From NCBI RefSeq assembly GCF_007747215.1, contig NZ_CP036273.1, forward strand, positions 3,146,322 through 3,210,321: 64,000 nucleotides of DNA, in the 5' to 3' direction. Shown piece by piece: positions 21,404 through 39,942 of the stretch (position 1 is the stretch's first letter; every line of letters starts with the position of its first letter). The position numbers were made by a program, and so were the translations under genes. A model generated the notes under the pieces. It did no database searches and had not been told where the DNA came from. It worked only from the letters and a program-made list of their open reading frames with translations. The DNA comes from Urbifossiella limnaea. Its GTDB lineage: Bacteria > Planctomycetota > Planctomycetia > Gemmatales > Gemmataceae.

Positions 21404-22372
21404 ATGTCCGCCTCACCCGCCGGCCGCCGCACGCTTGTGGCGGCCGGCGTCGTTCTGCTCGTGGCCGCCGCCGGCGCCGCCTGGTACTTCACCCGCGGCG
21501 ACGAGGTCGCCACCCTGCGCGGCCACCGCGGGCCGGTCCGTGCCGTCGCCTTCGCCCCGGACGGCACCCTCGCGTCCGGCGGCGACGACGGCACGGTCCG
21601 CCTGTGGGACACGGCCGGCCGGCGCGAACTCCGCTCGCTCGCCGGCCACTCGGGGCGGGTGCGGGCGCTCGGCTTCGCGGCCGGTGGCGTGCTCGCGTCC
21701 GTCGGTGACGACCACACCCTACGACTGTGGGACTGGCATGCCGGAACCGAGATCGGGACCGCGCCCGGAGGCGCGAAGGCACTCGAGTCGCTGGCCGTCT
21801 CGCCGGACGGCAGCGTGGTCGGGGCCGGCGGCGTGGAAGGCGTCGTGCGGTTGTGGAACGTCGCGGACCGGTCGCCGTTGAAGGCGCTGACCGGGCACAA
21901 GAAGCACGTCCACGCGCTGACGTTCCTACCCGACGGCAAAACTCTGCTGTCCGCTGGCGACGACGGCACCCTGCGCGTGTGGGACTGGCAGAAGGGGGCC
22001 GCGGCCGGTCAACTGGCGATCGGCCCGCGGCACGTCCACTCACTCGCGGTGTCGCCCGCCGGGGATGTGGTGGCTGCCGCGACCGGGGCCGGAGTCAAGC
22101 GCTGGGCGTTGTCGGGGCGGACGGAGTTGCCACCGCTGGAAGGCTCGGGCATGGCGGTCGGCGTGGCCTTCGCCGGAGACGGGTCGGTGCTCGCCACGAC
22201 GCACGAGGACGGCACCGTCCGCGTGTGGGGGGCCGCCGACGGCAAGCAACTGACGAGCTACCGCGGGCACGACAAGGTGGTGCTGGACGCGGCCGTGTCG
22301 CCGGACGGGCGGCTGGTCGCCACGGCCGGCGGGGACGGCACGGTGAAGCTGTGGCCGGTGCCGGGACGCTAA
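21404..22372 (+). CDS. WD40-repeat protein with N-terminal membrane anchor
   Basis: A 322-residue protein with an N-terminal hydrophobic signal-anchor (about residues 10-29) and seven WD40 units, starting at LRGHRGPVRAVAFAPDG and ending VATAGGDGTVKLWPVPG. This is enough for one closed seven-blade beta propeller. Blades carry recurrent GH and (L/V)W(D/N) pairs such as TVRLWD and TLRLWD. It probably acts as an extracytoplasmic scaffold. It is ten bases from the DUF1559 gene and has GAGG before the ATG, so the two may be cotranscribed. A 34-base-arm hairpin follows directly. Confidence 0.88.
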   Translation: MSASPAGRRTLVAAGVVLLVAAAGAAWYFTRGDEVATLRGHRGPVRAVAFAPDGTLASGGDDGTVRLWDTAGRRELRSLAGHSGRVRALGFAAGGVLASVGDDHTLRLWDWHAGTEIGTAPGGAKALESLAVSPDGSVVGAGGVEGVVRLWNVADRSPLKALTGHKKHVHALTFLPDGKTLLSAGDDGTLRVWDWQKGAAAGQLAIGPRHVHSLAVSPAGDVVAAATGAGVKRWALSGRTELPPLEGSGMAVGVAFAGDGSVLATTHEDGTVRVWGAADGKQLTSYRGHDKVVLDAAVSPDGRLVATAGGDGTVKLWPVPGR

Positions 22373-26827: not shown

Positions 26828-27055
26828 TTAAACGGGAGCCGCGATGAGGCCGATGAACCCCATGAGCGCGGCGACCGCGGCGAAGATGAGCAGCGTGACC
26901 CACCAGCCGGGGAAGGTGGACGGCGGCGCCGGTGGGGCGTTCGGGTCGGGCGGCGGGTCCTTCACCATGCCGCCGAGTACCAGCACCAGGCCGACCAGAC
27001 ACAGGCTCGCCAGCAGCCTACACACCGGCGGCAGGCACGCGAACGGCGGCGTCAT
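26828..27055 (-). CDS. Small two-helix membrane protein, last gene of the FtsH-like cluster
   Basis: A 75-residue protein with two hydrophobic helices (about residues 11-31 and 50-72) joined by a proline-rich loop DPPPDPNAPPAPP. No family is recognised. Its ATG overlaps the TGA of the 1131-aa gene (ATGA), which suggests translational coupling and membership of the same system, perhaps as a membrane tether or an effector. A small toxin-like role is possible but is not shown by any motif. Confidence 0.65.
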   Translation of the reverse strand: MTPPFACLPPVCRLLASLCLVGLVLVLGGMVKDPPPDPNAPPAPPSTFPGWWVTLLIFAAVAALMGFIGLIAAPV

Positions 27056-30000
27056 TCGCCCGCCCCGTCGCGCCGGGCCGCGGCCATGTCGCGGTGGATG
27101 CGGCGGCGGATCAGGAACTCGTCGTCGGCCAGCCAGCCGCGGACCGCGGGGCCGAGGGCGAAGTCGTCCGTGACCACGGCGCGGACCACCGTGTCCACCA
27201 ACTCCAGCGGCTTGAGCGTGAAGTAGCGGTTCGTGGAGCCGGTGGTGGAGACGCGGTCGAGTTGCTGGAACAGTTCTTCGAGCCGGCCCAGGGCGACGCG
27301 CGGCGGGGCGAACCCGAGCGCGTCGGCGTAGCCGATGGCGAGCTCGGTACGGTCGCGGTCGTCGTCCGATTTCGGCGCGAACAGGAGGCGCCGGCGGGCG
27401 TCGTCGAGGAGGCGGGTCGCGGCGTCGTCGTCGCCGGCGGCGAACCAGCCGACCGCGATGCCGAGCCGCGCCGGCGGCAGCGGGGCGTCGGCGGGCCAGT
27501 TGCCGCGGTCGGGGTCGAGTCGGTCCAGAATCGCCGCCGAATCGGCCGACATCCCCAGCTTGTGGAACGCCCGAAACACCGGCCTCGCGGAGCGAACGAG
27601 CGCGGCGCGGACGGTCGCCTGGGCGCCCGCGTGGCGGGCCAGGTAGTCGGCCACGGGCCGCAGTTCTGCCGCGAGCCCGTACCGCGCCGCGGCCCCGGCG
27701 GCGCCGACGAACAGCCGGGCCAGGTACTTCGGGAGTCGGTCGACGCGCTCGGCCTCCGTCCACCGGCCGACCTGAAGCCAGGCGTCGAACCACGTCGCCG
27801 CGGGGACGACGTGGCCGAGCGTCTCGCGGACGGCCCCTTCGTCGAGCCGACCGGAGGCGTCGAGCAGCGTCAGGGCCACGCGCGGCACGGTGGCCGAACA
27901 CGGGTCCGCGGCGCAGACGTCGAGTAACTCGCGGGCCTCCCGCCGGCTCGTGGTGGGGTCGGTGTTGTCCGCGAGCAACTGTAACCGTTCGCCGAGCCGG
28001 TCGGTGCCGCGGACCGGGCGCACGTCGTACCCGCGGAAGCCGACGCCCTCGCGGACCGGTTCCAGGACGCGCGAGTGGTCGCGGAGCCGGTCCACGGCGT
28101 GGCGCGCGAGCAGCGGCAGGGCGTCGTACCGCGGCAGCAGGTCGGCCGGGATGCCGCCGGCCGGCGGGCGGCCGTCCTGCACACCACGAATGCGGTCGGC
28201 GAACAGGCCGGACAGCACCGCGTGCGTCTCCGGCTCGACGCCCGGCCCCGCGGCCCGGCCCAGCGCCTTCCGCGCCCGCGCCGCCCAGTCCACGGACAGC
28301 GACCGCTCGCCGAGGCAGCCGAGCCCCCACGCCAGCATCAGCTGCGCGTACGCGGCCGTGCATTCGGTCTCGGGGTCGATGCCGACCGCCCGCAGCCGGC
28401 CCGCCGGGCCGAGTCGTTCGACCCAGTCCACCACGGGCTTCTTGACGCGGACGAGCCAGTCGCGGGCGGTGCGGAACCGCTCGGGCGACGCGGTGCCGTG
28501 GAAGCGGAGGAACGACGGCCCGTCCAGGTCGAGCCCCGGTCCCTTCTCGCGGAGACGGGCCACGAGTCGGTCGCGCCACCGGGCCAGCCCGAGGGCGTCG
28601 CCGCCGCTCAGCCGCGTCGCCCCACGCCGGGCCAGCCACGCGGACCGCGCCGGCAGGTCGTCGAACCGCTCGTCCAGCAGCGCGAGCACGCGCGGCAACT
28701 CGCCGATAAGTTCGGCCGGCGGCTGCGCCGCGAACGCGGCGCGGGCGGTGTACGCGGCCACGACGCGGGCCACCCCGACGCGGCCGGGGTCGGCGAGCAA
28801 CCGCTCGAGCGGCTCGGCCGGCGGGCGGCGGGCGGAGCGACATTCGGCCGCGTACCACTCGTCGAGCCAGTCCGTCGGCGGGGCGTCGGCCTCCCACGCG
28901 GCGTTCGCCCAGCACACCGCCGCATCCCCGGCGTTCCCGGTCGCCCCGTACACGCCGGCGAGTTCCGCCCACGCCGCCGCCCGCTCTTCGGGGCCGAGCC
29001 GGTGAACTGACCGCACGAGCCGGGCCTCGAGTTGCTGTCGCCGGGCGGCGCGGTCGGCACCGTGGAGCAGGACATCGACCGACGCCGCCGGACTCGCCGG
29101 CCTCGTTGCCGCCGCCGCGCTCGGCCGCGGCGCCGTGGGTTTGGCGGGTCGCCATGCGGCTAGCCGGCCGAGCGTGCGGGACAGCCACCCGCCGTGCGCA
29201 GCCGGATCGAGCTGCGACTCGTCCAGTGGGTACGCCGGCAGGGGCGCGAGTTCGACCTCGTCGAGGGTCGTGTCGTCGGCTTCGTCCGGCGTGTCGGCAT
29301 CGAACCCGGCGAGAGCGAACGGGTCCGGCCACACGCCCGAAGCGACCAGCGGCGTGGCGGTCGGGGCGGTGTACGACACCCAGCCCGTGAGCGGCCGGAA
29401 CGCCGAGCGCGGGACGGATCGCGTTACGAGTTCCGCGCCGGCGGCGTCTGCCCAGGTGAGATGATCGTCGCGGATGTTCAGCAACCGGGCCAACTCACGC
29501 GGGCGGAGCGGAGGGTGAAGTGCGTGACCGGCCGGGACGAAGCACCCGGCCGCCAGCGGGTCCGGCTGATAGCCCCTGAGCAGAATCGGCAGCGGCCCAG
29601 CGGCGGGGCCCGCGCACCGGACCACGAGCCCGTCCCGGCAGACGGCCACCTCGTACCCCGCTAGCGTGCGCTCCGCAGCTTCCCGGCAGAGCTGCCGCAC
29701 TGCTTCGGCGTCGGCGTTCGGCACCACCCACAACTGCGGCTCCGCCGGCTCGGCCGACCGACGCAGCCGGACTCGGACCTCGATGCGGGGTAGTACGCGA
29801 TCCGGCGGCCGCGCGGTTGCGGGGCCGGCGACGGCGAACGACTCGAGTTTGGGGTCGGGGACGCCGGCATGGAACGTGACCGACCGCGGCGGCCGCAGCA
29901 GCAGGACGTGGCCCGGCGGCAACGTGAAGCCGTCGGGGTACGGGTGCTCCCACCCCGCGATTACCCAAACGCCGCGGGCCTGCTCGGTAAACAGCTCGAC

Positions 30001-30447
30001 TCCCGGTTCGGTCGCGCGATCGACCAGGTCGGCCGGCGGGTTCTCGCAGCGGACCCACGTCCGCCGGTCCTCGCCGGGCAGTTGTCGCACGCCGACGGGC
30101 CGCGGCCCGCCGCGGGAGAGTGCGCGAAGGAATCGACCGACGAGTTCGTCCGGCAGCTCGAACAGCACTTGGTTACCGAGCGGGCCGGTCGCGGGTCGCA
30201 GGGGCAGGAGCTCGGCCCAGCCGCCGACCTGTTCGGGGGTGGGGTGACCGCCGCCGAGCGTCTGCACGCCGAAGCGGCCGAGTGCGGCGAGCGTCGATTG
30301 CGGGATCGGGGCGGCAGGTTCGACCCAGAGGCGGCCGAGGGCGTCCCACCCGGCGCGGGCCGGGGCGGCGGTCACCGCGGCCGGCAGCACCCCGCTGGCG
30401 AGCACCAGCCGGAGGGCGTCGGGGTTCGGGAAGAAGAGCGCCGGCAT
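27052..30447 (-). CDS. Giant hypothetical protein, paralogue B of tandem pair
   Basis: This 1131-residue protein has no signal peptide or membrane helix. It aligns by eye with its 1159-aa neighbour: the N-terminal module FFPNPDALRLVLASGVLP, a GRLWVEP strand, RSAFRPLTGWVSY near 350, a repeat-like helical segment GDAAVCWANAAWE near 500, and the C-terminal box WLADDEFLIRRRIHRDM. The second half reads as alpha-helical repeats of TPR/HEAT character. I infer a cytoplasmic adaptor or substrate-recognition subunit of the FtsH-like system. It is 42 bases from paralogue A. Confidence 0.72.
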   Translation of the reverse strand: MPALFFPNPDALRLVLASGVLPAAVTAAPARAGWDALGRLWVEPAAPIPQSTLAALGRFGVQTLGGGHPTPEQVGGWAELLPLRPATGPLGNQVLFELPDELVGRFLRALSRGGPRPVGVRQLPGEDRRTWVRCENPPADLVDRATEPGVELFTEQARGVWVIAGWEHPYPDGFTLPPGHVLLLRPPRSVTFHAGVPDPKLESFAVAGPATARPPDRVLPRIEVRVRLRRSAEPAEPQLWVVPNADAEAVRQLCREAAERTLAGYEVAVCRDGLVVRCAGPAAGPLPILLRGYQPDPLAAGCFVPAGHALHPPLRPRELARLLNIRDDHLTWADAAGAELVTRSVPRSAFRPLTGWVSYTAPTATPLVASGVWPDPFALAGFDADTPDEADDTTLDEVELAPLPAYPLDESQLDPAAHGGWLSRTLGRLAAWRPAKPTAPRPSAAAATRPASPAASVDVLLHGADRAARRQQLEARLVRSVHRLGPEERAAAWAELAGVYGATGNAGDAAVCWANAAWEADAPPTDWLDEWYAAECRSARRPPAEPLERLLADPGRVGVARVVAAYTARAAFAAQPPAELIGELPRVLALLDERFDDLPARSAWLARRGATRLSGGDALGLARWRDRLVARLREKGPGLDLDGPSFLRFHGTASPERFRTARDWLVRVKKPVVDWVERLGPAGRLRAVGIDPETECTAAYAQLMLAWGLGCLGERSLSVDWAARARKALGRAAGPGVEPETHAVLSGLFADRIRGVQDGRPPAGGIPADLLPRYDALPLLARHAVDRLRDHSRVLEPVREGVGFRGYDVRPVRGTDRLGERLQLLADNTDPTTSRREARELLDVCAADPCSATVPRVALTLLDASGRLDEGAVRETLGHVVPAATWFDAWLQVGRWTEAERVDRLPKYLARLFVGAAGAAARYGLAAELRPVADYLARHAGAQATVRAALVRSARPVFRAFHKLGMSADSAAILDRLDPDRGNWPADAPLPPARLGIAVGWFAAGDDDAATRLLDDARRRLLFAPKSDDDRDRTELAIGYADALGFAPPRVALGRLEELFQQLDRVSTTGSTNRYFTLKPLELVDTVVRAVVTDDFALGPAVRGWLADDEFLIRRRIHRDMAAARRDGAGE

Positions 30448-30489: not shown

Positions 30490-33400
30490 TCACGCCCCGG
30501 CCCGGTGCAGGTCGGCGTGGACCCGCTTGCGGACCAGGTACTCGTCGTCGTCCAGCCACTTCTTCCCGGTCGGCCCGAGGGCGAACTCGTCGCTCACCAG
30601 CGCCCACACCACTTCTTCGATAACCCGCACGTGGAACAGCGAGAACGCCGAATTCCCGGTCCAGGAGTTCCCCAGGTTCTTCCCCTCGAACCGGTGGAAG
30701 AGCTCGCCGATGCGCCCGAGGCCCAGCTCGGCCGGTCCGTGGCCGAGGGCGGCGACGTAGGCGCGGAGCAACTCCGCGAGCGGCTTCGCCATCAGAGTGT
30801 TCTTCACCCACCTGCCGCCGAGCAGCTCCTCGCGGGCCACGTCGAGTAGCGGTACGGCACGGTCGATCATGCCGAACGTCAGCTGCCCGCCGGCCAGGGT
30901 CAGGAGCGTTTGCAGCGCCGCGGACCAGCTGTCGGGCCGGGCCGAGAACTTTCGCCGTAAGGCGTCCGGCGTCGCGCCCTGAAGGACCTCCGCCTGGAGG
31001 CGCGTGAGAAACCGATCGACCTCGTCGCGGAGGCCGAGCCGCTTCAGGCCGCGGAGGAACGCCCCGGCGACGATGTTGATGAGCTTGTACCGCGCCTCCT
31101 CGGGGCGGGACCGGAGCAGCGCCGCGAACCCGTCCACGACCGGCCGCAGGAGATCGGTGCGACCGAAGTGTGCGGCGGCGAACACGGCCCGCTCGACGAG
31201 TTCGCCCTGCCGCCGGAGCACGTCCGCGGGTTCGCCCGCCGCCGGGGGCTTCGCCGCGAGGCCGGCTAGTACGCCGGGGACGAGCCGCAGGAGTTCCGCC
31301 GCGAGCGCCTCGCCCGCCCGGCCGGCCAGCGGTAACGCTTCGTGGAGCAGGTAGAAGTGGACTTCCCGGAGTTCCTTGCCGGGGAAGCCCTCGCGCGCCA
31401 GCTTCCGCACCTTGTCCGCCAGCCGGGCGGGTTCGCGGAGTTGGGCCAGCGTCAGCAGTTCCTTGCGGAGCGGGTCGGAGTACGCGGTGTTGAACATCAC
31501 GTAGGCGTCCCGCGACTCCTCCGGGTCCACCACCCGCGACACCTCGCGCATCTTGTCGATGTGGTGCGTCGAGGTCTTGAACGGGTTGTCCGACTTCTCC
31601 CCCTGTCGCCGGCTCATCTCCACTTTGCCCTTCTGTACGATCGCGTCGAGGGCGTCGAGGACGGGCGTCGGCAGCGGCCCGGCGTGCGGCCTGCCGGCCG
31701 CCGCGTCGGCGACGCGGTGGGCGAACGCGCCGTGCAGGAACCCGGCCGTGACCGACGCCGCGACGGCGTCGAAGCTCTTGTTGAGCTGCCAGTCCTCCGG
31801 CACCGGCCGGACCATCACACGCCCGGCGGCGTCCACCAACTCTTTCGCGGCGGCCGCCTCGCCGAGCCGTGCGAGGGCGAAGGCGAAGAACAGGTCCACG
31901 TAGGGCACGGTCGGCGGGTGGTGGCCGACCCACGCCCGCGCCGCGGCGTGCAGGTCGAGCGCCTTCTCGCGCACCGCTACCATTCGCTCCGCGTCCCGCA
32001 GGCCGGCGAAGCGGAGGAAGCCGGGCAGGTCGCGCTCGGCCCGCAGCCCCTGTGTCAGGAGTCGTTCGAGCAGCCGGTCGCGGGCGCGGGCGAGCCCCTT
32101 CTGGTCGCCGCCCGCCAGCTTCGCCAGCCTGGCCGCGGCCAGCCACACGGCGCGGATCGGCAGCGCCTCCTGGTGCGCGTCCACGTACTTCTGCACCGCC
32201 GGCAGCCGCGTCGCGAGCCACTCCGGCAGCGGCGACCGCGACGACGCGGCCAGGAACGCCGCCACCGCCGCCCGCGGTTCCGCGACCGATGGTGAGCTGC
32301 CCTTCAGCTTCGCGTCGAGCTCGGCGGGGCCGACCGGGCGGCCGGCCAGCTGCGGGAACTCGGCCGCGGCCCACGCCGCCTCCCACTCCGGGTGCGGCTC
32401 GCCGTGCTCCCACAGCGCGTTCAACCAGCACACCGCGGCGTCGGAGGTGGCATCGCCGGCGCGGCTGAACGCCTCCGCGAGTTTGGGCCACAGGGCCGTC
32501 CGCTCCGCGGAGTCGAGCGGCCCCTCGACCGCCAGGAACTCCTCGGCCAGTTCCTTCGCCCGCAGCTTCCACTCGTTCGGCGCCACCACCTCCGGCGCCG
32601 GCGCGACGTAGGAAGTTGCTTCGGGCTTCACCAGCTTCGGGCGCGTCGCCTTCGTTTTCGGGGCGGCTGGCTCGGGGACGGGCACGTTGTCCTTCGCGGT
32701 CGGCTCGCGGTTCGATTTGTCGGGCTTCGGCGGCGGGCCGCCGGCGTCGGTGCAGACGAAGTGTTCGAAGTCGAACCGTGTCGCCCCGATCCACGCCGCG
32801 AGCGGCGCCTGCTCGGCCTCGATGACGTAATCGACCCAGTCCTCCAGCGACCGGAACGCCGCGTCCGGCACGCTCTCGGGCGTGAAGCCGGACGCGCCCG
32901 AAGGGTAGAGCCAGACGACGCGGTCGGGGTCGTCGGCGAGGAGCCGACGGACGGCGTCGCGCCGTAGCTGCGGGTGGAGCCGACGGCCGACCGGGAGGAA
33001 CAGGTTCGGCAGCTTCCAGTACGGCTTGAACGCGACGGCCTTCTCCAGCGCCAACTCCGGCGGCGCGAGTTTGGACGGCCGCGTCCGCAGCACCGCGACG
33101 CGGGTGCCGTCGGCGGCCGCGGCGACGGCGAACATCAGCCGCTGCGTCAGCCGCTCGTCGGCGTCGCGGACGAGGGCGTCGAGCTGGCCGACGGGGTCGT
33201 CGCGGAGCACCCACAACTCGGCCACGTCGGCCGCATTGCCGGCGGTGAGGCGGAGCGGCACCGACACCGGCTCCGGGGTCGGGGCGGGCTCCCACGCCAC
33301 CGGCGCCGCCGGCAGCGGGAACTCGGTCAGCTCGTACACGTCGTGGAACGGGGCGGCGTCGAGGAACTGCCAGGTCGCGGGCGCGGTCAGCAGCGCGAAC

Positions 33401-33969
33401 TGCCCCTCGGCGACGCGGAGCTGCGCGGCGAGCGGGTGCGTGTAGCCGAGCTCGACCCACACCCGCGGCGCGCGTTCGAGGTACGCCCGCATCCCGCCGG
33501 CCGGCCCGTCGAGCGCCCGCAGCAGCGTGTAGTACGGCGGGCCGATCACGCGGAGCAGCACGCGGCGGTCGTCGCCGTCGGCCGCAAACCAGCGGAAGCC
33601 CTGGCGGTCGTTGCCGAGCCGCAGCAGTTCCGTGACGACGGCCGGCAGGTCGTCCGCGCTCGGCAGCTCGAACAGCACCGCGGCCCCGCTCGCCACCTCG
33701 GGCGTGCCCGACTCCTTCGCCAGGGGCACGAGTTCGACCCAGCTGCCGACCTTGCGGATGTCGTCGGAGCCGTGCCGCTTCGAGCCCTTAACGCCGAGCC
33801 GGTCGAGCACCTTGAGCGTCGTCTTGGAGATGCTTTGCGTCGGCTCGACGTACAGCCGGCCGTGCGCGTCCGTGCTGACGGCCGCGGGGGCGAGCGTGAC
33901 GTCGGCGGGGACCAGCCCGGTGGTGAGGGCCAGGCGCACGGCTTCGGGGTCGGGGAAGTGCAGGATCAT
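30490..33969 (-). CDS. Giant hypothetical protein, paralogue A of tandem pair
   Basis: A 1159-residue soluble protein homologous along its length to the next gene: LHFPDPEAVRLALTTGLVP at the N terminus, GRLYVEP, AFRSLEDWVDYVIEAE near residue 380, SDAAVCWLNALWEHG near 515 and WLDDDEYLVRKRVHADL at the C terminus. A lysine- and proline-rich linker (about 420-470) separates a beta-rich N-terminal part from a long helical-repeat part. It resembles the large accessory proteins of FtsH ternary-type loci, but I cannot confirm the family. It starts ten bases after the 87-aa gene. Confidence 0.72.
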   Translation of the reverse strand: MILHFPDPEAVRLALTTGLVPADVTLAPAAVSTDAHGRLYVEPTQSISKTTLKVLDRLGVKGSKRHGSDDIRKVGSWVELVPLAKESGTPEVASGAAVLFELPSADDLPAVVTELLRLGNDRQGFRWFAADGDDRRVLLRVIGPPYYTLLRALDGPAGGMRAYLERAPRVWVELGYTHPLAAQLRVAEGQFALLTAPATWQFLDAAPFHDVYELTEFPLPAAPVAWEPAPTPEPVSVPLRLTAGNAADVAELWVLRDDPVGQLDALVRDADERLTQRLMFAVAAAADGTRVAVLRTRPSKLAPPELALEKAVAFKPYWKLPNLFLPVGRRLHPQLRRDAVRRLLADDPDRVVWLYPSGASGFTPESVPDAAFRSLEDWVDYVIEAEQAPLAAWIGATRFDFEHFVCTDAGGPPPKPDKSNREPTAKDNVPVPEPAAPKTKATRPKLVKPEATSYVAPAPEVVAPNEWKLRAKELAEEFLAVEGPLDSAERTALWPKLAEAFSRAGDATSDAAVCWLNALWEHGEPHPEWEAAWAAAEFPQLAGRPVGPAELDAKLKGSSPSVAEPRAAVAAFLAASSRSPLPEWLATRLPAVQKYVDAHQEALPIRAVWLAAARLAKLAGGDQKGLARARDRLLERLLTQGLRAERDLPGFLRFAGLRDAERMVAVREKALDLHAAARAWVGHHPPTVPYVDLFFAFALARLGEAAAAKELVDAAGRVMVRPVPEDWQLNKSFDAVAASVTAGFLHGAFAHRVADAAAGRPHAGPLPTPVLDALDAIVQKGKVEMSRRQGEKSDNPFKTSTHHIDKMREVSRVVDPEESRDAYVMFNTAYSDPLRKELLTLAQLREPARLADKVRKLAREGFPGKELREVHFYLLHEALPLAGRAGEALAAELLRLVPGVLAGLAAKPPAAGEPADVLRRQGELVERAVFAAAHFGRTDLLRPVVDGFAALLRSRPEEARYKLINIVAGAFLRGLKRLGLRDEVDRFLTRLQAEVLQGATPDALRRKFSARPDSWSAALQTLLTLAGGQLTFGMIDRAVPLLDVAREELLGGRWVKNTLMAKPLAELLRAYVAALGHGPAELGLGRIGELFHRFEGKNLGNSWTGNSAFSLFHVRVIEEVVWALVSDEFALGPTGKKWLDDDEYLVRKRVHADLHRAGA

Positions 33970-33979
33970 GCGACGGGGG

Positions 33980-34243
33980 TCAACCGGGGTTGCTGGACTT
34001 GTGCCGCTGCGGGGCGTCGGGCTCCGCGGCCGGCGCGGCCGGCTCGCGCGCCGGCTCGCGCACGATCACGATCTCGCCGAGGTCCTCGGCGTTGACGCCC
34101 TTGCCGACGAGCTTCTCGACGAGCGTGCGGTGCAGGTTCTCGTGCTCGACCGGCAGGGCGTCGGGGTCGGAGTCGAGCTTCACGATGATGTTCTGCTTGC
34201 CGCTGTCCGGGTCGCGGCGGAGCAGGATGGTCATGGTCGCCAC
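33980..34243 (-). CDS. Small 87-aa protein of the FtsH-like cluster
   Basis: The protein has a beta-hairpin-like start (TILLRRDPDSGKQNIIVKLDSD), a helical middle (HENLHRTLVEKLVGKGV) and a disordered Ala/Pro tail. No family is recognised; its size and position between the AAA+ peptidase and the giant proteins suggest a dedicated adaptor. The GTG at 34243 has GGAG six bases upstream and was preferred to ATG 34234. Gaps are 13 and 10 bases on either side. Confidence 0.65.
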   Translation of the reverse strand: MATMTILLRRDPDSGKQNIIVKLDSDPDALPVEHENLHRTLVEKLVGKGVNAEDLGEIVIVREPAREPAAPAAEPDAPQRHKSSNPG

Positions 34244-34256
34244 GGCGGGCTCCGGG

Positions 34257-36422
34257 TCAGGACGGCTTGGCGGGGTCGGGCACGGCCGGGCCGGGGGCGC
34301 CCACGTCGGCCGGGAACTTGGCCCGCAGCTCGGCGACGATCTCGGCCACCCGCCCGCCCTCGATCGTCTTCTTCTCCAGCAACTCGTCGCGGACCCGAAC
34401 CAGGTCGGCCTTGTGCTTCTTCAGGATGGCCGCGGCGCGGGCCTGGCACTGCACGATGAGCGTGTTCACCTGCCGGTCGATGGCCTCGGCCTGCGACGCG
34501 GACAGGACCTCGCGGCGGCCGTCCTTGTCGCGGAACGTGCGGAGCGGGGCGGCCAGGCTGCTCATGCCGAGCGTATCGACGAACACGCTGGCCAGCTCGG
34601 TGGCGCGGGCCAGGTCGGAGCGCGGGTTGCCGAACCCGCTCGCCCCGGTGGACACGTCGCCGAGCACGAGCCGCTCCGCCTCGATGCCGCCGTACAGCAC
34701 CGTGAGGATGTCGAGGAGTTCGTTGCGGCTGTGGCCGATGCGGCGCTTGTCGTGCTTGAACGCGGTGAAGAACGGCGCCCACGGCATGTCGCTCTGGATG
34801 GTCACCTTCTCGGGCGGCGGGTGGTTCGGGCAGAAGATCGCGCACACGAAGTGCCCGGCCTCGTGGGTCGACACCATGGCGGCGTCGTTGTCGGCCAGCT
34901 CGACCTTGTCCTCGAACTCGGACAGCGCCCGCTCGATGACTTTCGGCGTGGTGGCGTCGGTGATTTCGTCGCGCATCCGCAACCGGGCGACGGCGCGGCA
35001 CAGGGCGTTCAGGTGGTCGCCGCTGAACGGCGTGCCGGTCGGCGTCATGTAGTTGTCGCCGGTCCGGCGGACGGAGTAGTCGAGTGCCTCGTCCGTCATC
35101 TTCAGCCGCATCTTGCGGTCGTAGATGGCGAGGATGTCCTTGCGGTCGTCGTCGTCGGGGTAGGGAATGTGGAGGTGGAACTCGAACCGGCCGGGGCGGA
35201 GCAGGGCGGGGTCCAGGCTCTCGACGAAGTTCGTGGTGCCGACGACGAAGACGAGTTCGTCCTTGTGGAAGCCGTCCATTTCGGTGAGGAGCTGGTTCAC
35301 CATCGAGTGCTCGACGCCGCTGCCGGTGTACGTGCCGCGGGCGGTGGCGAACGAGTCCAGCTCGTCGAACACGATGATCGACGGGGCCGACTGCCGGGCC
35401 TTGTGGAAGATTTGCCGCAGGTTCTCCTCCGACTCGCCGACCCACTTACTCTTCAGTTCCGGCCCGGACACCACGGTGATGGCCGCGCCGATGCTTGCGG
35501 CGATGGCCTTGGCGAAGTACGTCTTTCCGGTGCCGGGCGGCCCCCAGAAGATCATCCCGCGCGGGATCAGTTCTTCGAGCCGGGCCACGTCGTCGGCGTC
35601 GGTCGCGGCGTCGCGCTTGCGGAGCACGTCGAGGATCTCGGCCTTCAGCCGCTGCTTCACCTTGGCGTAGCCGCCGATGTCGGCGTCCAGATCGACGGTC
35701 GGAATCTCCATCGCGCCGGACAGCGTGGCCTGCCGCAACTGCGTGTAGGCCCGCTTCGGGTCGGCGGGGTAGTCCTCGCCGTCCAGCGTGCTCAGGAGCT
35801 TCCGCAGGCGCACTGCGTTGACGCCGGACACGTACTTGTACAGCTGCAGCGGCGAGAACGTCTTGCCGAACTTCCGCGACTCCTTCTGCGTGACGAGGTG
35901 CTTCAGCTTCGTGCGCGAGATGCCGAGGATGCTGACCCAGTGCGGGAACAGGTTCTCGATCACCTTCGGGAGCGGGAACGACGGGTCTTTGAACCCGAGC
36001 CACACAAGCTCCGGGTTTTCGTACAGCAGCGGGATCACCTCCCGCGCCTCACCCGTGAGTCCGCCCTGGCTGGTGGTCAGCAGGTCGAGGTGCGGTAGCA
36101 CCACGACGCGCCGCTCGACCGCGCCGCGGACGGCGTCGCGGAGCTGGCCGATCATCGTGCCGATGAGCCCCTGCTGCACCGCCCCCTGGGTCGCGCCGTC
36201 GCGGGTGCGGCCGTCGAGGTACAGGCACTGGAGCTTGAACTCTTTCAGCCGGGTCCGCAGGTTCAGATAGAGGTACGGGGCGAGTTCCTTGTCGCACTCG
36301 ATGAGGACGGGCAGCCCGCGGACGAGCCGGCCGGCGACCTCGGCCAGCTCCTGGGCGTACGCCGCCTCGACCGCCTGGTCGGCGGACAGGTCTTTCGGCA
36401 GGAGGTTCTCGACCAGGTTCAT
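34257..36422 (-). CDS. Soluble FtsH-like AAA+ ATPase / zinc metallopeptidase
   Basis: The 721-residue protein has no membrane helix, unlike ordinary FtsH. Residues 1-215 look like a degenerate AAA domain without a P loop (RRVVVLPHLDLLT as a Walker-B-like strand), as in Ycf46. The active AAA domain has Walker A GPPGTGKT (294-301), pore loop KWVGES, Walker B IIVFDELD (about 349-356) and RPGRFEFHL. The peptidase domain has HEAGH (520-524), GGIEAERLVLGDVSTGAS and the third zinc ligand Asp603 in RSDLARATELA, so proteolysis is probably active. It should unfold and degrade chosen proteins, with neighbours as recognition subunits. Confidence 0.9.
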   Translation of the reverse strand: MNLVENLLPKDLSADQAVEAAYAQELAEVAGRLVRGLPVLIECDKELAPYLYLNLRTRLKEFKLQCLYLDGRTRDGATQGAVQQGLIGTMIGQLRDAVRGAVERRVVVLPHLDLLTTSQGGLTGEAREVIPLLYENPELVWLGFKDPSFPLPKVIENLFPHWVSILGISRTKLKHLVTQKESRKFGKTFSPLQLYKYVSGVNAVRLRKLLSTLDGEDYPADPKRAYTQLRQATLSGAMEIPTVDLDADIGGYAKVKQRLKAEILDVLRKRDAATDADDVARLEELIPRGMIFWGPPGTGKTYFAKAIAASIGAAITVVSGPELKSKWVGESEENLRQIFHKARQSAPSIIVFDELDSFATARGTYTGSGVEHSMVNQLLTEMDGFHKDELVFVVGTTNFVESLDPALLRPGRFEFHLHIPYPDDDDRKDILAIYDRKMRLKMTDEALDYSVRRTGDNYMTPTGTPFSGDHLNALCRAVARLRMRDEITDATTPKVIERALSEFEDKVELADNDAAMVSTHEAGHFVCAIFCPNHPPPEKVTIQSDMPWAPFFTAFKHDKRRIGHSRNELLDILTVLYGGIEAERLVLGDVSTGASGFGNPRSDLARATELASVFVDTLGMSSLAAPLRTFRDKDGRREVLSASQAEAIDRQVNTLIVQCQARAAAILKKHKADLVRVRDELLEKKTIEGGRVAEIVAELRAKFPADVGAPGPAVPDPAKPS

Positions 36423-36468: not shown

Positions 36469-37041
36469 TCACACTTCGATCGTGATCGTCAGCGACCCGC
36501 TCGCGGCGTCCTCGCTGATCTCCTTGACGGTGCCGAGCTGCTTGGCCTTCTCCTTCAGCGCGTCGCGGGTCACCTTGTTGACCACGTCCGCGACCTCGGG
36601 CTGAAGCTCTTGCAGCTTCTTCTCCAGTCGGTCCGTCGCCTCCTTCTGGAGGTCCGACTGCTTCTCGTCGAACCGCTTGTCCAGGTCTTGCTTCAGCTGC
36701 TCGCGGACGCGGTCGCGGAGGCTCGTCTCGGTCGGCCCCACGTCGTTGAACCCGGTCGCGTCGCGCTTCGCCTCCTGCTCCACCGTCGCCTCCGACTCGG
36801 CCTTCACCGTTACTTCCCCGCTGCACGGGTCCACGGTCACGGTGGTGGAGCCGTCCTTGCGCACGAGCGTGCCGTCGGGCTGCTCCTCGAAGCCGCGCTC
36901 CTTCAACTCCTGGCGCAGCAGCGTGGCCATGTCCTCGGGCGGGAGGATTTCGAGGAGTTCGAGCGTGGTGCCGATCTCGTCCCCGGCCTTGAGGTGGCGC
37001 GTCTCCGACTCCTTCACGCTGATCCGGTACGCTCGGCTCAT
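36469..37041 (-). CDS. Coiled-coil protein of the FtsH-like cluster
   Basis: A soluble, highly charged 190-residue protein. Residues 1-85 form a compact alpha/beta part (LELLEILPPEDMATLLRQEL, then ERGFEEQPDGTLVRKDGSTTVTVD), residues 95-160 a long coiled coil rich in Lys/Asp/Glu, and the C terminus a strand SLTITIEV. A conserved small module of Ycf35/DUF1257 flavour is possible, because such proteins accompany Ycf46-like ATPases, but I am not confident. It lies 46 bases upstream of the AAA+ peptidase gene in the same operon. Confidence 0.68.
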   Translation of the reverse strand: MSRAYRISVKESETRHLKAGDEIGTTLELLEILPPEDMATLLRQELKERGFEEQPDGTLVRKDGSTTVTVDPCSGEVTVKAESEATVEQEAKRDATGFNDVGPTETSLRDRVREQLKQDLDKRFDEKQSDLQKEATDRLEKKLQELQPEVADVVNKVTRDALKEKAKQLGTVKEISEDAASGSLTITIEV

Positions 37042-37065: not shown

Positions 37066-38133
37066 CTATGTTCGGAGTGGCTCGATCGCCTCGACCGCGG
37101 CCCGGGCGCGGGCGGCGACGCGGTCGCCGCCGGCCGCCTCCCAGTCCTGCTTCCACAGCTGGCTCGCGGCGTACCCTTCGTCGAAGTAGCCGACCGCCCG
37201 GTACTTCTCCTGCCAGCTGGCAAGCACCGCCATCTGCCGCGGCAGCGCCACCGCCGCGCGCTGGGTGTCGAGCCGGTCGGCGAGCCGGGCGGGACCGGGG
37301 CCGCCGAGGCCGCTCGTCCAGAACGCCGGCAGGAGGTCATTCTGGAACAACCCCGCGTTGGCGTGCAGGACGAACCGCGCCAGGTCGGGCCGACCCGCGC
37401 TTTCAGCCGCCCCCAGGTACGCCGCGAGGCCCGCCGCCTCGGCTCGGCCCTGCTGCCGCATCCGCCGCCAGTCGTCGATCTGCCCCTTCGCCCGTTCGGC
37501 CCGTAACCAGCGCTGCGTCAGCAGCGGTTGTAGGCACTCCAGCATCACCGCCCGCTCGCCGGCGAACATCGGAGCGAAGTCCGGCGGCGCGGGCTCGGCC
37601 TCGTCCGCCAGGTCGGCCGCCGAGCCGAGCCAGGCGAACCGGTTCGACCGGAACGCCGCCTTCCGCCTCAACACGGCCGCGACCTCGGGGTCCGGCCGAC
37701 AGGCCTCGAACGCCAGCCAGAAGAAGAACTCGTCGGCCGCGGTCAGGTCCGCGGGCGGGGCGTCCCACGGGGTCCGCGTGTCGTGAACCCGCTCGGCCGT
37801 CGCCCACAGCAGGAACTCGACCACGTGTGGTGAGAACGTCAGTGCCCGCTCGTCGAGCGGGGTGCGGTCCCACGCCCGACCCGACTTCGGCTGCCCACTG
37901 CGGAGGTGGCGGTCGGCCCGCCAGCCGCCGGCGCGGACCAGGAACAGCACGCACGCCTTCGCCAGGCTGTCCTGCACCAGTTCGACGGCGTTGCGGCTCA
38001 GGCACGCGGGGCGGGTGTGGCTCGTGCGGAGGAGCTTGTAGCCGTCCTCCGCGGGGAAGCGGCCGAGACAAAACCTCACCAGCCGGATCAAGTCGGCCTC
38101 GAACTTCGACAACGGGCGCGGGGCGTCGGTCAT
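37066..38133 (-). CDS. 355-aa hypothetical protein of the FtsH-like cluster
   Basis: A soluble, mostly alpha-helical protein with no motif I recognise. Notable stretches are SKFEADLIRLVRFCLGRFP at the N terminus, VVEFLLWATAERVHDTRTPW and DEFFFWLAFEACRPDP in the middle and WQEKYRAVGYFDEGYAASQL near the end. The ATG at 38133 overlaps the stop of the radical-SAM gene (ATGA), so the two are translationally coupled; the longer in-frame start at 38262 is therefore rejected. Likely a specific subunit of the system. Confidence 0.72.
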   Translation of the reverse strand: MTDAPRPLSKFEADLIRLVRFCLGRFPAEDGYKLLRTSHTRPACLSRNAVELVQDSLAKACVLFLVRAGGWRADRHLRSGQPKSGRAWDRTPLDERALTFSPHVVEFLLWATAERVHDTRTPWDAPPADLTAADEFFFWLAFEACRPDPEVAAVLRRKAAFRSNRFAWLGSAADLADEAEPAPPDFAPMFAGERAVMLECLQPLLTQRWLRAERAKGQIDDWRRMRQQGRAEAAGLAAYLGAAESAGRPDLARFVLHANAGLFQNDLLPAFWTSGLGGPGPARLADRLDTQRAAVALPRQMAVLASWQEKYRAVGYFDEGYAASQLWKQDWEAAGGDRVAARARAAVEAIEPLRT

Positions 38134-38765
38134 GACGCGGCGCCCGCGACGGGCGTGCGGCGCCACCCCTTCCACAACCCCGCGGCGGCCCCGGCCGGGA
38201 AGCCGTTCACGGTCACCTCGCCGCCCCGGACGCGGATTTCGAGCGTGTTTCGCTTCCGCCACTGGTCGTCGAAGCGGTAACGATTGGTGAGGAAGTGAAT
38301 GCCCTGGTTGCGAGAGCCGATCCAGCGGCGCTCGGTGTCCGGTTGGTCGCGCAGGTACGGGCCGTCCACGAGGATGTCGGTGCGGTCGAGCAGGCCGGCG
38401 GCGTCGGGTCGGTCGCGGAGCTGGTCGAGGGTGTAGCCGCTGAACACCATCACGCTGAGGTTCAATAACCGGGCCGCGTCCGCGAGTTCAACTGCACCGA
38501 CAGGGTGGGAGAAGGGCTCCCCGCCGAGCAACGTGATTCCCTCGACGCCCTCGCGGTCACGGGCGCGCTCCATCTCGTCCGCTACGTCCGCCACCGTGCG
38601 CTGGTCCCCGCCGTCGAACGGCAGGAACTCGGGGTTGCAGCAGCCGGGGCAGCGGAGGGGGCAGCCCTGGAACCACACCGCGAATCGCTTCCCCGGCCCC
38701 TCCGCCTCGGTACACGCCACCACCTGGGCGATGCGCACCGTCGGCTGTTCGGTCGTGCGGGTCAT
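38130..38765 (-). CDS. Radical SAM activase-like protein (single 4Fe-4S domain, NrdG/PflA type)
   Basis: A 211-residue protein with the CxxxCxxC cluster motif (Cys35, Cys39, Cys42 in GCPLRCPGC), the aromatic FQG before it, and GITLLGGEPF as the SAM-binding GGE motif. Size matches NrdG-like activating enzymes that install glycyl radicals, yet no glycyl-radical enzyme or anaerobic reductase gene is near. It may modify a protein of this cluster instead. It is 40 bases downstream of rtcA and coupled to the next gene by ATGA. Confidence 0.85.
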   Translation of the reverse strand: MTRTTEQPTVRIAQVVACTEAEGPGKRFAVWFQGCPLRCPGCCNPEFLPFDGGDQRTVADVADEMERARDREGVEGITLLGGEPFSHPVGAVELADAARLLNLSVMVFSGYTLDQLRDRPDAAGLLDRTDILVDGPYLRDQPDTERRWIGSRNQGIHFLTNRYRFDDQWRKRNTLEIRVRGGEVTVNGFPAGAAAGLWKGWRRTPVAGAAS

Positions 38766-38805: not shown

Positions 38806-39843
38806 TCAACCGGGCGCCGGCGCCACCCTCACCGTGCCGGGTTCGCCCTCGCGGCCCTCCAACACCACCTCGCGATCGACGAACGCCCGCACGGTGTCGA
38901 TGTTCGTTGTCAGGTGGCGCGTCACCTCCGACGTGCGGAAGGTGCTGCCGTCCGGCGAGAACACCAGCGGCAGGAGGAGTTGGTCAGCGGAGTGCGGGTC
39001 GACCGGGGCGGCCGCGGCGCGGTAGCGGAGGGCCTCGTCCGCGGCGTCGTCGGCCACCGATTCGGCCGGCTTACCGCGCTCGCCCAGGCCGAAGAACAGT
39101 GTCGGCACGGGTGCCTGCCGGAAGATCACCGCGGCCACGGTGCCGGGGTTCGCGGCCTCCCACTCCTCCAGCGGAATATGCGACTCGACGCCGTCCGCCT
39201 TCAGGCGCACCGACAGCCGCCGGGCTTGCCTGCGGGCGATCCCTTCGGGCAGTCCGGCGACGGCCGAGAAGCCGCCGGCGGTGGTCAGCTCGGGGGTGGT
39301 CGTGAGGGTCATTCCGCGGACGCGGGTACACGGGTGGATGGTGGCGCGGACCTCGCCGCCGCCGCGCGGGTAGAAGCCGGGGCGGATCATCTCCTGGTCC
39401 AGGTCAATGCCAAGCCGCTTCAGGTAGCCGCCCCAGGTGGTGGTGTTGAAGTGGTAGCACGGGGCGTGCGTGTTGTGCGTGCCGCCGGTGACCGTGACCG
39501 TACTCGGCGCGTCGCCCCGAAGGGCGAGCGGCAGCGCGACCGTGTGCAGCACCAGCGACGTGGACCCGGCCGTGCCGATGGAGAAGGTGTAGTTCCCCGC
39601 CTTCACCGGCCCCGGCTCGAAGTACAGCACCGCGGAGCCGACCGAGGCGCCTTTGTAAATCGCGCCGCAGATCGCGCCCGCGGCCTTCACGCACATCAGG
39701 TGCTGCGGCTGGAGCCCCGGCTTGGGGCGGTTCGCCCGGATGTTCAGGAGCTTGAACGGCCGGGCGGTGAGGGCGGCGAGCGCGAGGGCGCTGCGGAGGA
39801 TTTGTCCGCCGCCTTCGCCGCGGCTGCCGTCGAGTTCGATCAT
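38806..39843 (-). CDS. rtcA: RNA 3'-terminal phosphate cyclase
   Basis: A 345-residue enzyme that converts RNA 3'-phosphates to 2',3'-cyclic phosphates using ATP. The N terminus IELDGSRGEGGGQILRSAL is diagnostic. LQPQHLMCVKAA, GTAGSTSLVLHTVALPLA and the adenylated histidine in DPHSADQLLLPL are all present. ATG 39843 gives a start like E. coli RtcA; 39888 is possible. No rtcB or rtcR is in the window. It heads the minus-strand run that continues into the FtsH-like cluster, so RNA damage could be one input. It is divergent from the DUF2293 gene. Confidence 0.9.
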   Translation of the reverse strand: MIELDGSRGEGGGQILRSALALAALTARPFKLLNIRANRPKPGLQPQHLMCVKAAGAICGAIYKGASVGSAVLYFEPGPVKAGNYTFSIGTAGSTSLVLHTVALPLALRGDAPSTVTVTGGTHNTHAPCYHFNTTTWGGYLKRLGIDLDQEMIRPGFYPRGGGEVRATIHPCTRVRGMTLTTTPELTTAGGFSAVAGLPEGIARRQARRLSVRLKADGVESHIPLEEWEAANPGTVAAVIFRQAPVPTLFFGLGERGKPAESVADDAADEALRYRAAAAPVDPHSADQLLLPLVFSPDGSTFRTSEVTRHLTTNIDTVRAFVDREVVLEGREGEPGTVRVAPAPG

Positions 39844-39942
39844 GCCGGCTGACACACCCGTGCTCCGCTTGTTCCCCACGTCGGACACGCGGCGGCCACG
39901 CCGGGTTCAGATTACGCCGCCCGCCGGCCGATCCTACCCCGC

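Follow-up and report, generated by a model that had tools for sequence, protein, structure and literature searches.

A Soluble FtsH-Like Protein of Urbifossiella limnaea Is a Probable Protease Component of a Dispersed FtsH-ivWA-MoxR Ternary System

Introduction

FtsH is defined as a membrane-anchored AAA+ protease. The window analyzed here, a 64-kb stretch of the Urbifossiella limnaea genome, encodes a protein with an AAA domain and an M41 zinc peptidase of the FtsH type, in which the first-pass annotation found no N-terminal transmembrane hairpin. The locus raises the question of what an FtsH-like protein does away from the membrane, whether its peptidase works, and how substrates would reach it.

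FtsH-ivWA-MoxR ternary systems were described as subsystem 3 of the MoxR-vWA systems by Kaur, Burroughs, Iyer, and Aravind (2020; PMC7159879). The published FtsH component has two FtsH-type AAA domains, the first without P-loop and Walker B, and occurs in deltaproteobacteria, actinobacteria, and planctomycetes (PMC7159879). It is termed a chaperone, and neither M41 nor solubility is discussed in the main text (PMC7159879). A role in biological conflict was proposed for the systems, and linkage of MoxR and vWA to the FtsH gene served as a criterion for discovery, not as a functional requirement (PMC7159879). The fvm families are the Pfam names for domains of these systems. A literature search found no experimental study of them, an absence that by itself proves nothing.

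Results

The gene for the FtsH-like component (34257..36422, reverse strand; 721 aa) is an exact and open reading frame that starts with ATG at 36422 and ends with TGA at 34257. It encodes a degenerate AAA+ domain (35718..36383; residues ~14-235), an active AAA domain (residues ~240-505), and an M41 zinc peptidase (residues 511-695). Pfam places AAA at residues 290-421 (1e-41) and Peptidase_M41 at 511-694 (4.8e-27). Ka/Ks against close relatives is at most 0.30 in all three domains, which argues that the frame is more than a chance one. The genome is a single contig of 7.8 Mb and also encodes a canonical FtsH (L001), so the FtsH-like component is not the housekeeping FtsH. A further short reading frame (L003, G000:C1:988043-988303) carries an M41-like domain with HEAGH and has no AAA domain.

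Active-site motifs are those expected of a canonical FtsH motor and peptidase. The active AAA domain has Walker A (GPPGTGKT, 35520..35543, residues 294-301), Walker B, and the SRH arginines, and its pore loop is SKWVGES (residues 325-331), of the KWVGES type first reported. The peptidase has the HExxH motif as HEAGH (34851..34865, residues 520-524) and an Asp as third zinc ligand, D603 (34614..34616), both of which the first-pass annotation had called intact. Residues K300, D353, E354, R409, and R412 of the motor are invariant in all 30 M41-bearing members, as are H520, E521, H524, and D603 of the peptidase, from Planctomycetota to Myxococcota. The M41 domain has a Ka/Ks of 0.07-0.19. It is nevertheless the least conserved main domain, with a mean identity to the window protein of 48% compared to 80% for AAA; this divergence might fit adaptation to differing substrates.

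Some relatives have no M41 domain at all (L103, L029, and L030). The first, in a proteobacterial MAG, is a double-AAA protein whose locus resembles the beta-propeller subtype in cis: it also encodes bpMoxR, fvmX2, part of an fvmX7, and a WD40 protein that probably ends in a vWA domain. The other two are paralogues from the genus of the window (in genomes G002 and G003), in which Walker B has changed from FDELD to FKELD and GKT to GKR. No further fvm gene was matched within 20 kb around either paralogue (L237, L238). Given that M41 varies most among the main domains and that some relatives lack it, some of these systems may not need proteolysis.

Membrane anchoring was assessed by hydropathy and from predicted models. 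The most hydrophobic 19-mer of the FtsH-like component averages 1.43 on the Kyte-Doolittle scale and corresponds to the helix behind Walker A (residues 302-320). The maxima of relatives, 1.3-1.9, fall in the same segments of the AAA core, mostly near residues 302-313 or 391-403. The N-terminal transmembrane hairpin of canonical FtsH is absent by hydropathy and from the secondary structure of the models, and neither approach revealed a hidden transmembrane segment. The missing hairpin had thus been read correctly.

In place of the hairpin stands a domain whose ~215 residues had been taken for a P-loop-less AAA domain. Residues 1-216 match no Pfam or NCBIfam model. A structure predicted from an alignment of 29 such N-terminal domains (pLDDT 90.7) has an alpha/beta core with five strands followed by a helical lid, and it matches the AAA+ domains of p97 D1 and proteasomal Rpt subunits with Z ~13 over ~203 residues, in agreement with the initial reading. 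The P-loop is missing in all 29 aligned members, most of which have LIECDKE at that site, and the Walker B DE is likewise missing in all 29, most having VLPHLDLL. Despite these losses, K45 and L112-D113-L114, near the expected P-loop and Walker B sites, are invariant, which suggests that the domain serves in structure or docking and is not merely decaying.

The full-length model is that of a monomer and of moderate quality (pLDDT 75, pTM 0.51). Residues 241-698 match FtsH (Z 23), residues 508-709 match the isolated FtsH protease domain (Z 19, rmsd 2.5), and residues 15-504 match the tandem-AAA proteins Rix7 and Cdc48 (Z 14-16). The peptidase fold is therefore retained in the predicted structure. 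FtsHi motor complexes are also among the best structural matches.

Neighboring genes form a run on the same strand in the order RtcA, radical SAM, fvmX6, fvmX5, FtsH-like component, fvmX3-analog, fvmX7, fvmX7, and are tightly spaced, with -4 to 46 nt between genes. Upstream of the FtsH-like gene are fvmX5 (36469..37041; PF20003, 1.6e-76), fvmX6 (37066..38133; PF20004, 2.8e-140; start reset to the ATG at 38133, overlapping the radical SAM stop by 4 nt), and an NrdG-like radical SAM gene (38130..38765) whose CxxxCxxC is conserved in relatives. Downstream are fvmX3-analog (33980..34243; PF20002, 7.8e-33; 87 aa) and two fvmX7 genes (30490..33969, PF20005, 4.3e-106, 1159 aa; and 27052..30447, PF20005, 2.2e-54, 1131 aa), all on the reverse strand. 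The two fvmX7 genes are in tandem here, and in several relatives with MoxR in cis the place of the second is taken by MoxR. The order of the run is kept in related genomes and has a shorter form in Myxococcota; the nearest named related locus (L095) is in a Singulisphaera MAG, and others are in Gemmataceae. A WD40 beta-propeller protein is encoded near the locus on the opposite strand (21404-22372), and nothing ties it to the system. For the locus, PADLOC matches were either weak or general to AAA proteins (IetA, TRIP13).

The run is headed by a loosely linked gene for RNA 3'-phosphate cyclase, RtcA (38806..39888, reverse strand; PF01137, 4.6e-70). It keeps the conserved His of HLxTNI and lies 40 nt upstream of the radical SAM gene, a layout shared by about a dozen relatives. 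RtcA was considered as a core partner and dropped; it is present in 21 of 25 relatives with the FtsH component and in 13 of 34 without it (within-family p 0.03), and in several genomes it is located elsewhere. RtcA may tie the locus to RNA repair, but the statistics within the family are weak.

MoxR and vWA genes were not found in the 64-kb window. Both are encoded elsewhere in the genome: bpMoxR at G000:C1:4157084-4158103 (PF20030, 1.4e-61) and ivWA at G000:C1:4250614-4252035, which matches PF19997, the "vWA domain found in the FtsH ternary systems" (6e-39), and PF19996, the helical N-terminus (7.7e-25). The two genes are ~93 kb apart, and each is ~1 Mb from the FtsH-like gene. In relatives the partners can be adjacent. 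By profile, MoxR directly follows X7 in seven loci (L081, L086, L092, L093, L094, L098, and L099), with an unusual P-loop, GPPGTAKS or a near variant. The divergent vWA gene, ivWA, directly follows MoxR in one of these (L092), and MoxR and ivWA are neighbors in genome G018. A system without MoxR-vWA was therefore rejected, since MoxR follows X7 in those relatives and both partners are present in trans in the window genome.

Co-inheritance was evaluated across 59 genomes by Fisher's test, with genomes treated as independent and relatedness ignored: MoxR is present in 24 of 25 genomes with the FtsH component and 3 of 34 without it (p 3e-12), and ivWA in 25 of 25 and 4 of 34 (p 8e-13). X5 follows the same pattern (25/25 vs 1/34). 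Within the family alone, the same test gives p values of 8e-6 for MoxR, 6e-6 for ivWA, and 7e-9 for X5. The few exceptions come mostly from assemblies that are fragmented or incomplete. Four genomes have ivWA and no FtsH component (G036, G001, G020, and G022). Three of them look like gaps or partial data: the contig stops just after X5 in G036, G001 is 84% complete, and G020 is in 790 contigs with 7% contamination. In the fourth, G022 (95% complete), X3-analog, X7, and MoxR are in cis (L243), and no FtsH component was found within 20 kb around them or in a search of the genome.

Discussion

Judged by its sequence and neighbors, the FtsH-like protein belongs to a kind already known, as the FtsH component of a ternary system (FtsH-ivWA-MoxR) in its simpler subtype with a helical ivWA. 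The initial reading was incomplete in this respect, having recognized neither the published system nor the flanking fvmX5, fvmX6, fvmX7, fvmX3-analog, and radical SAM genes. Our additions are modest: conservation of the protease site, solubility, and partners that are unlinked yet co-inherited. Because MoxR and ivWA are present in the genome and co-inherited with the FtsH component, the ternary system is complete and split over three places. Searches based on gene neighborhood will thus undercount complete systems.

By profile score the motor is nearer to CDC48, above all D2, than to FtsH, though the literature classes it as FtsH-type. Taken alone, the AAA part reaches 206 bits with CDC48 and 159 with FtsH, and each of the 15 family members gains 19-37 bits more from the CDC48-D2 profile than from an FtsH profile made for this analysis. 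The SKWVGES pore loop is CDC48-D2-like, and the tandem AAA layout is that of CDC48. It is thus quite possible, if somewhat short of an even chance, that a CDC48-like tandem AAA protein with a dead D1 and a live D2 gained an FtsH-type M41 domain, an origin compatible with our main explanation. However, the AAA-M41 arrangement is that of FtsH, and in AAA trees, rebuilt after the very long outgroup of the first tree was left out, a grouping of the family with FtsH is compatible with the best tree. Derivation from CDC48 was dropped as a proven origin, since the AU test decides for neither grouping; the one with CDC48 D2 is not rejected (p-AU 0.37). More tentatively, the whole may be a dispersed machine in which a soluble double-ring zinc protease, made of a CDC48-like motor with a dead first ring and an FtsH-type peptidase, is fed by an unlinked but strictly co-inherited MoxR-vWA pair.

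FtsHi pseudo-proteases have lost active-site residues of the kind that are retained here. Because none of the 30 sequences has lost a zinc ligand or the catalytic E521, the FtsH-like component is probably a working protease. It could instead act as a chaperone or disassembly motor that keeps M41 mainly as a hexamerization disk, as in FtsHi, and several observations fit such a function: the conservation of M41 is the lowest among the main domains, relatives without it exist, and FtsHi motor complexes are among the top structural matches. The component was also named a chaperone by Kaur et al. (PMC7159879). We consider this unlikely, as a domain kept purely for scaffolding should have lost some of these residues, the zinc ligands and the catalytic Glu. 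An intact peptidase would turn the presumed chaperone of the ternary systems into their probable proteolytic output. A mere second FtsH that lost its anchor and serves general quality control would account for the M41 and AAA domains but is very improbable, given the separately encoded canonical FtsH, an N-terminus that is an AAA+ domain and not a deleted transmembrane segment, and the position of the gene in a conserved fvm run co-inherited with MoxR and ivWA.

The FtsH component of this helical-ivWA system is thus likely a soluble hexameric protease supplied by MoxR-vWA and the X proteins. In the proposed mechanism, the FtsH-like component would assemble into a soluble hexamer, with a non-hydrolyzing AAA ring on top as a possible platform for docking. 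Below it, an active AAA ring would thread substrate by its aromatic pore loop (W327) into the M41 zinc-peptidase chamber underneath, the presumed site of proteolysis. MoxR and the divergent vWA protein, with X3-analog, X5, X6, and X7, would choose the substrate, remodel it, and pass it on, so that delivery by partners replaces the membrane anchoring used by FtsH. Solubility and the intact M41 site support the cytosolic protease proposed earlier; the different substrate delivery proposed with it is a fair supposition, to which MoxR-ivWA and the X proteins can now be added as candidates. A cytosolic AAA+ protease fed by MoxR-vWA is the most likely reading of the locus. A soluble FtsH relative with a second, dead AAA ring would also be a natural case in which to test how substrate entry depends on the membrane anchor and on a ring upstream.

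Scattered genes that are co-inherited and kept through one family seem less typical of mobile defense islands. This pattern would therefore leave room for a developmental or housekeeping role.

Comparison with known systems places the protein closest to the published FtsH ternary systems. It shares with them an inactive AAA domain followed by an active one; fvmX5, fvmX6, fvmX7, fvmX3-analog, and a radical SAM gene as neighbors; bpMoxR and an ivWA with helical N-terminus in the same genome; and a planctomycete host. It differs from the published systems in that MoxR and ivWA are unlinked (~1 Mb away) and in the RtcA cyclase at the head of the run, which is not mentioned in PMC7159879. With FtsH, m-AAA, and i-AAA proteases (M41, TIGR01241) it shares an AAA motor directly followed by M41, the same ligands, and the fold (Z 23). 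Unlike FtsH, it has no transmembrane hairpin and has an additional degenerate AAA domain; its pore loop reads W-V-G-E-S compared to F-V-G-V-G, and its score with NCBIfam FtsH_fam is 253 bits, far below the cut-off of 600. Like CDC48/p97/VAT and Rix7, it has two tandem AAA domains, and its AAA sequence is closest to CDC48 D2 profiles. In contrast to these unfoldases, its first AAA domain has neither P-loop nor Walker B, it has no CDC48 N-domain, and it carries its own peptidase; with its first AAA domain degenerate, it scores 207 bits with NCBIfam CDC48, for which the cut-off is 802.
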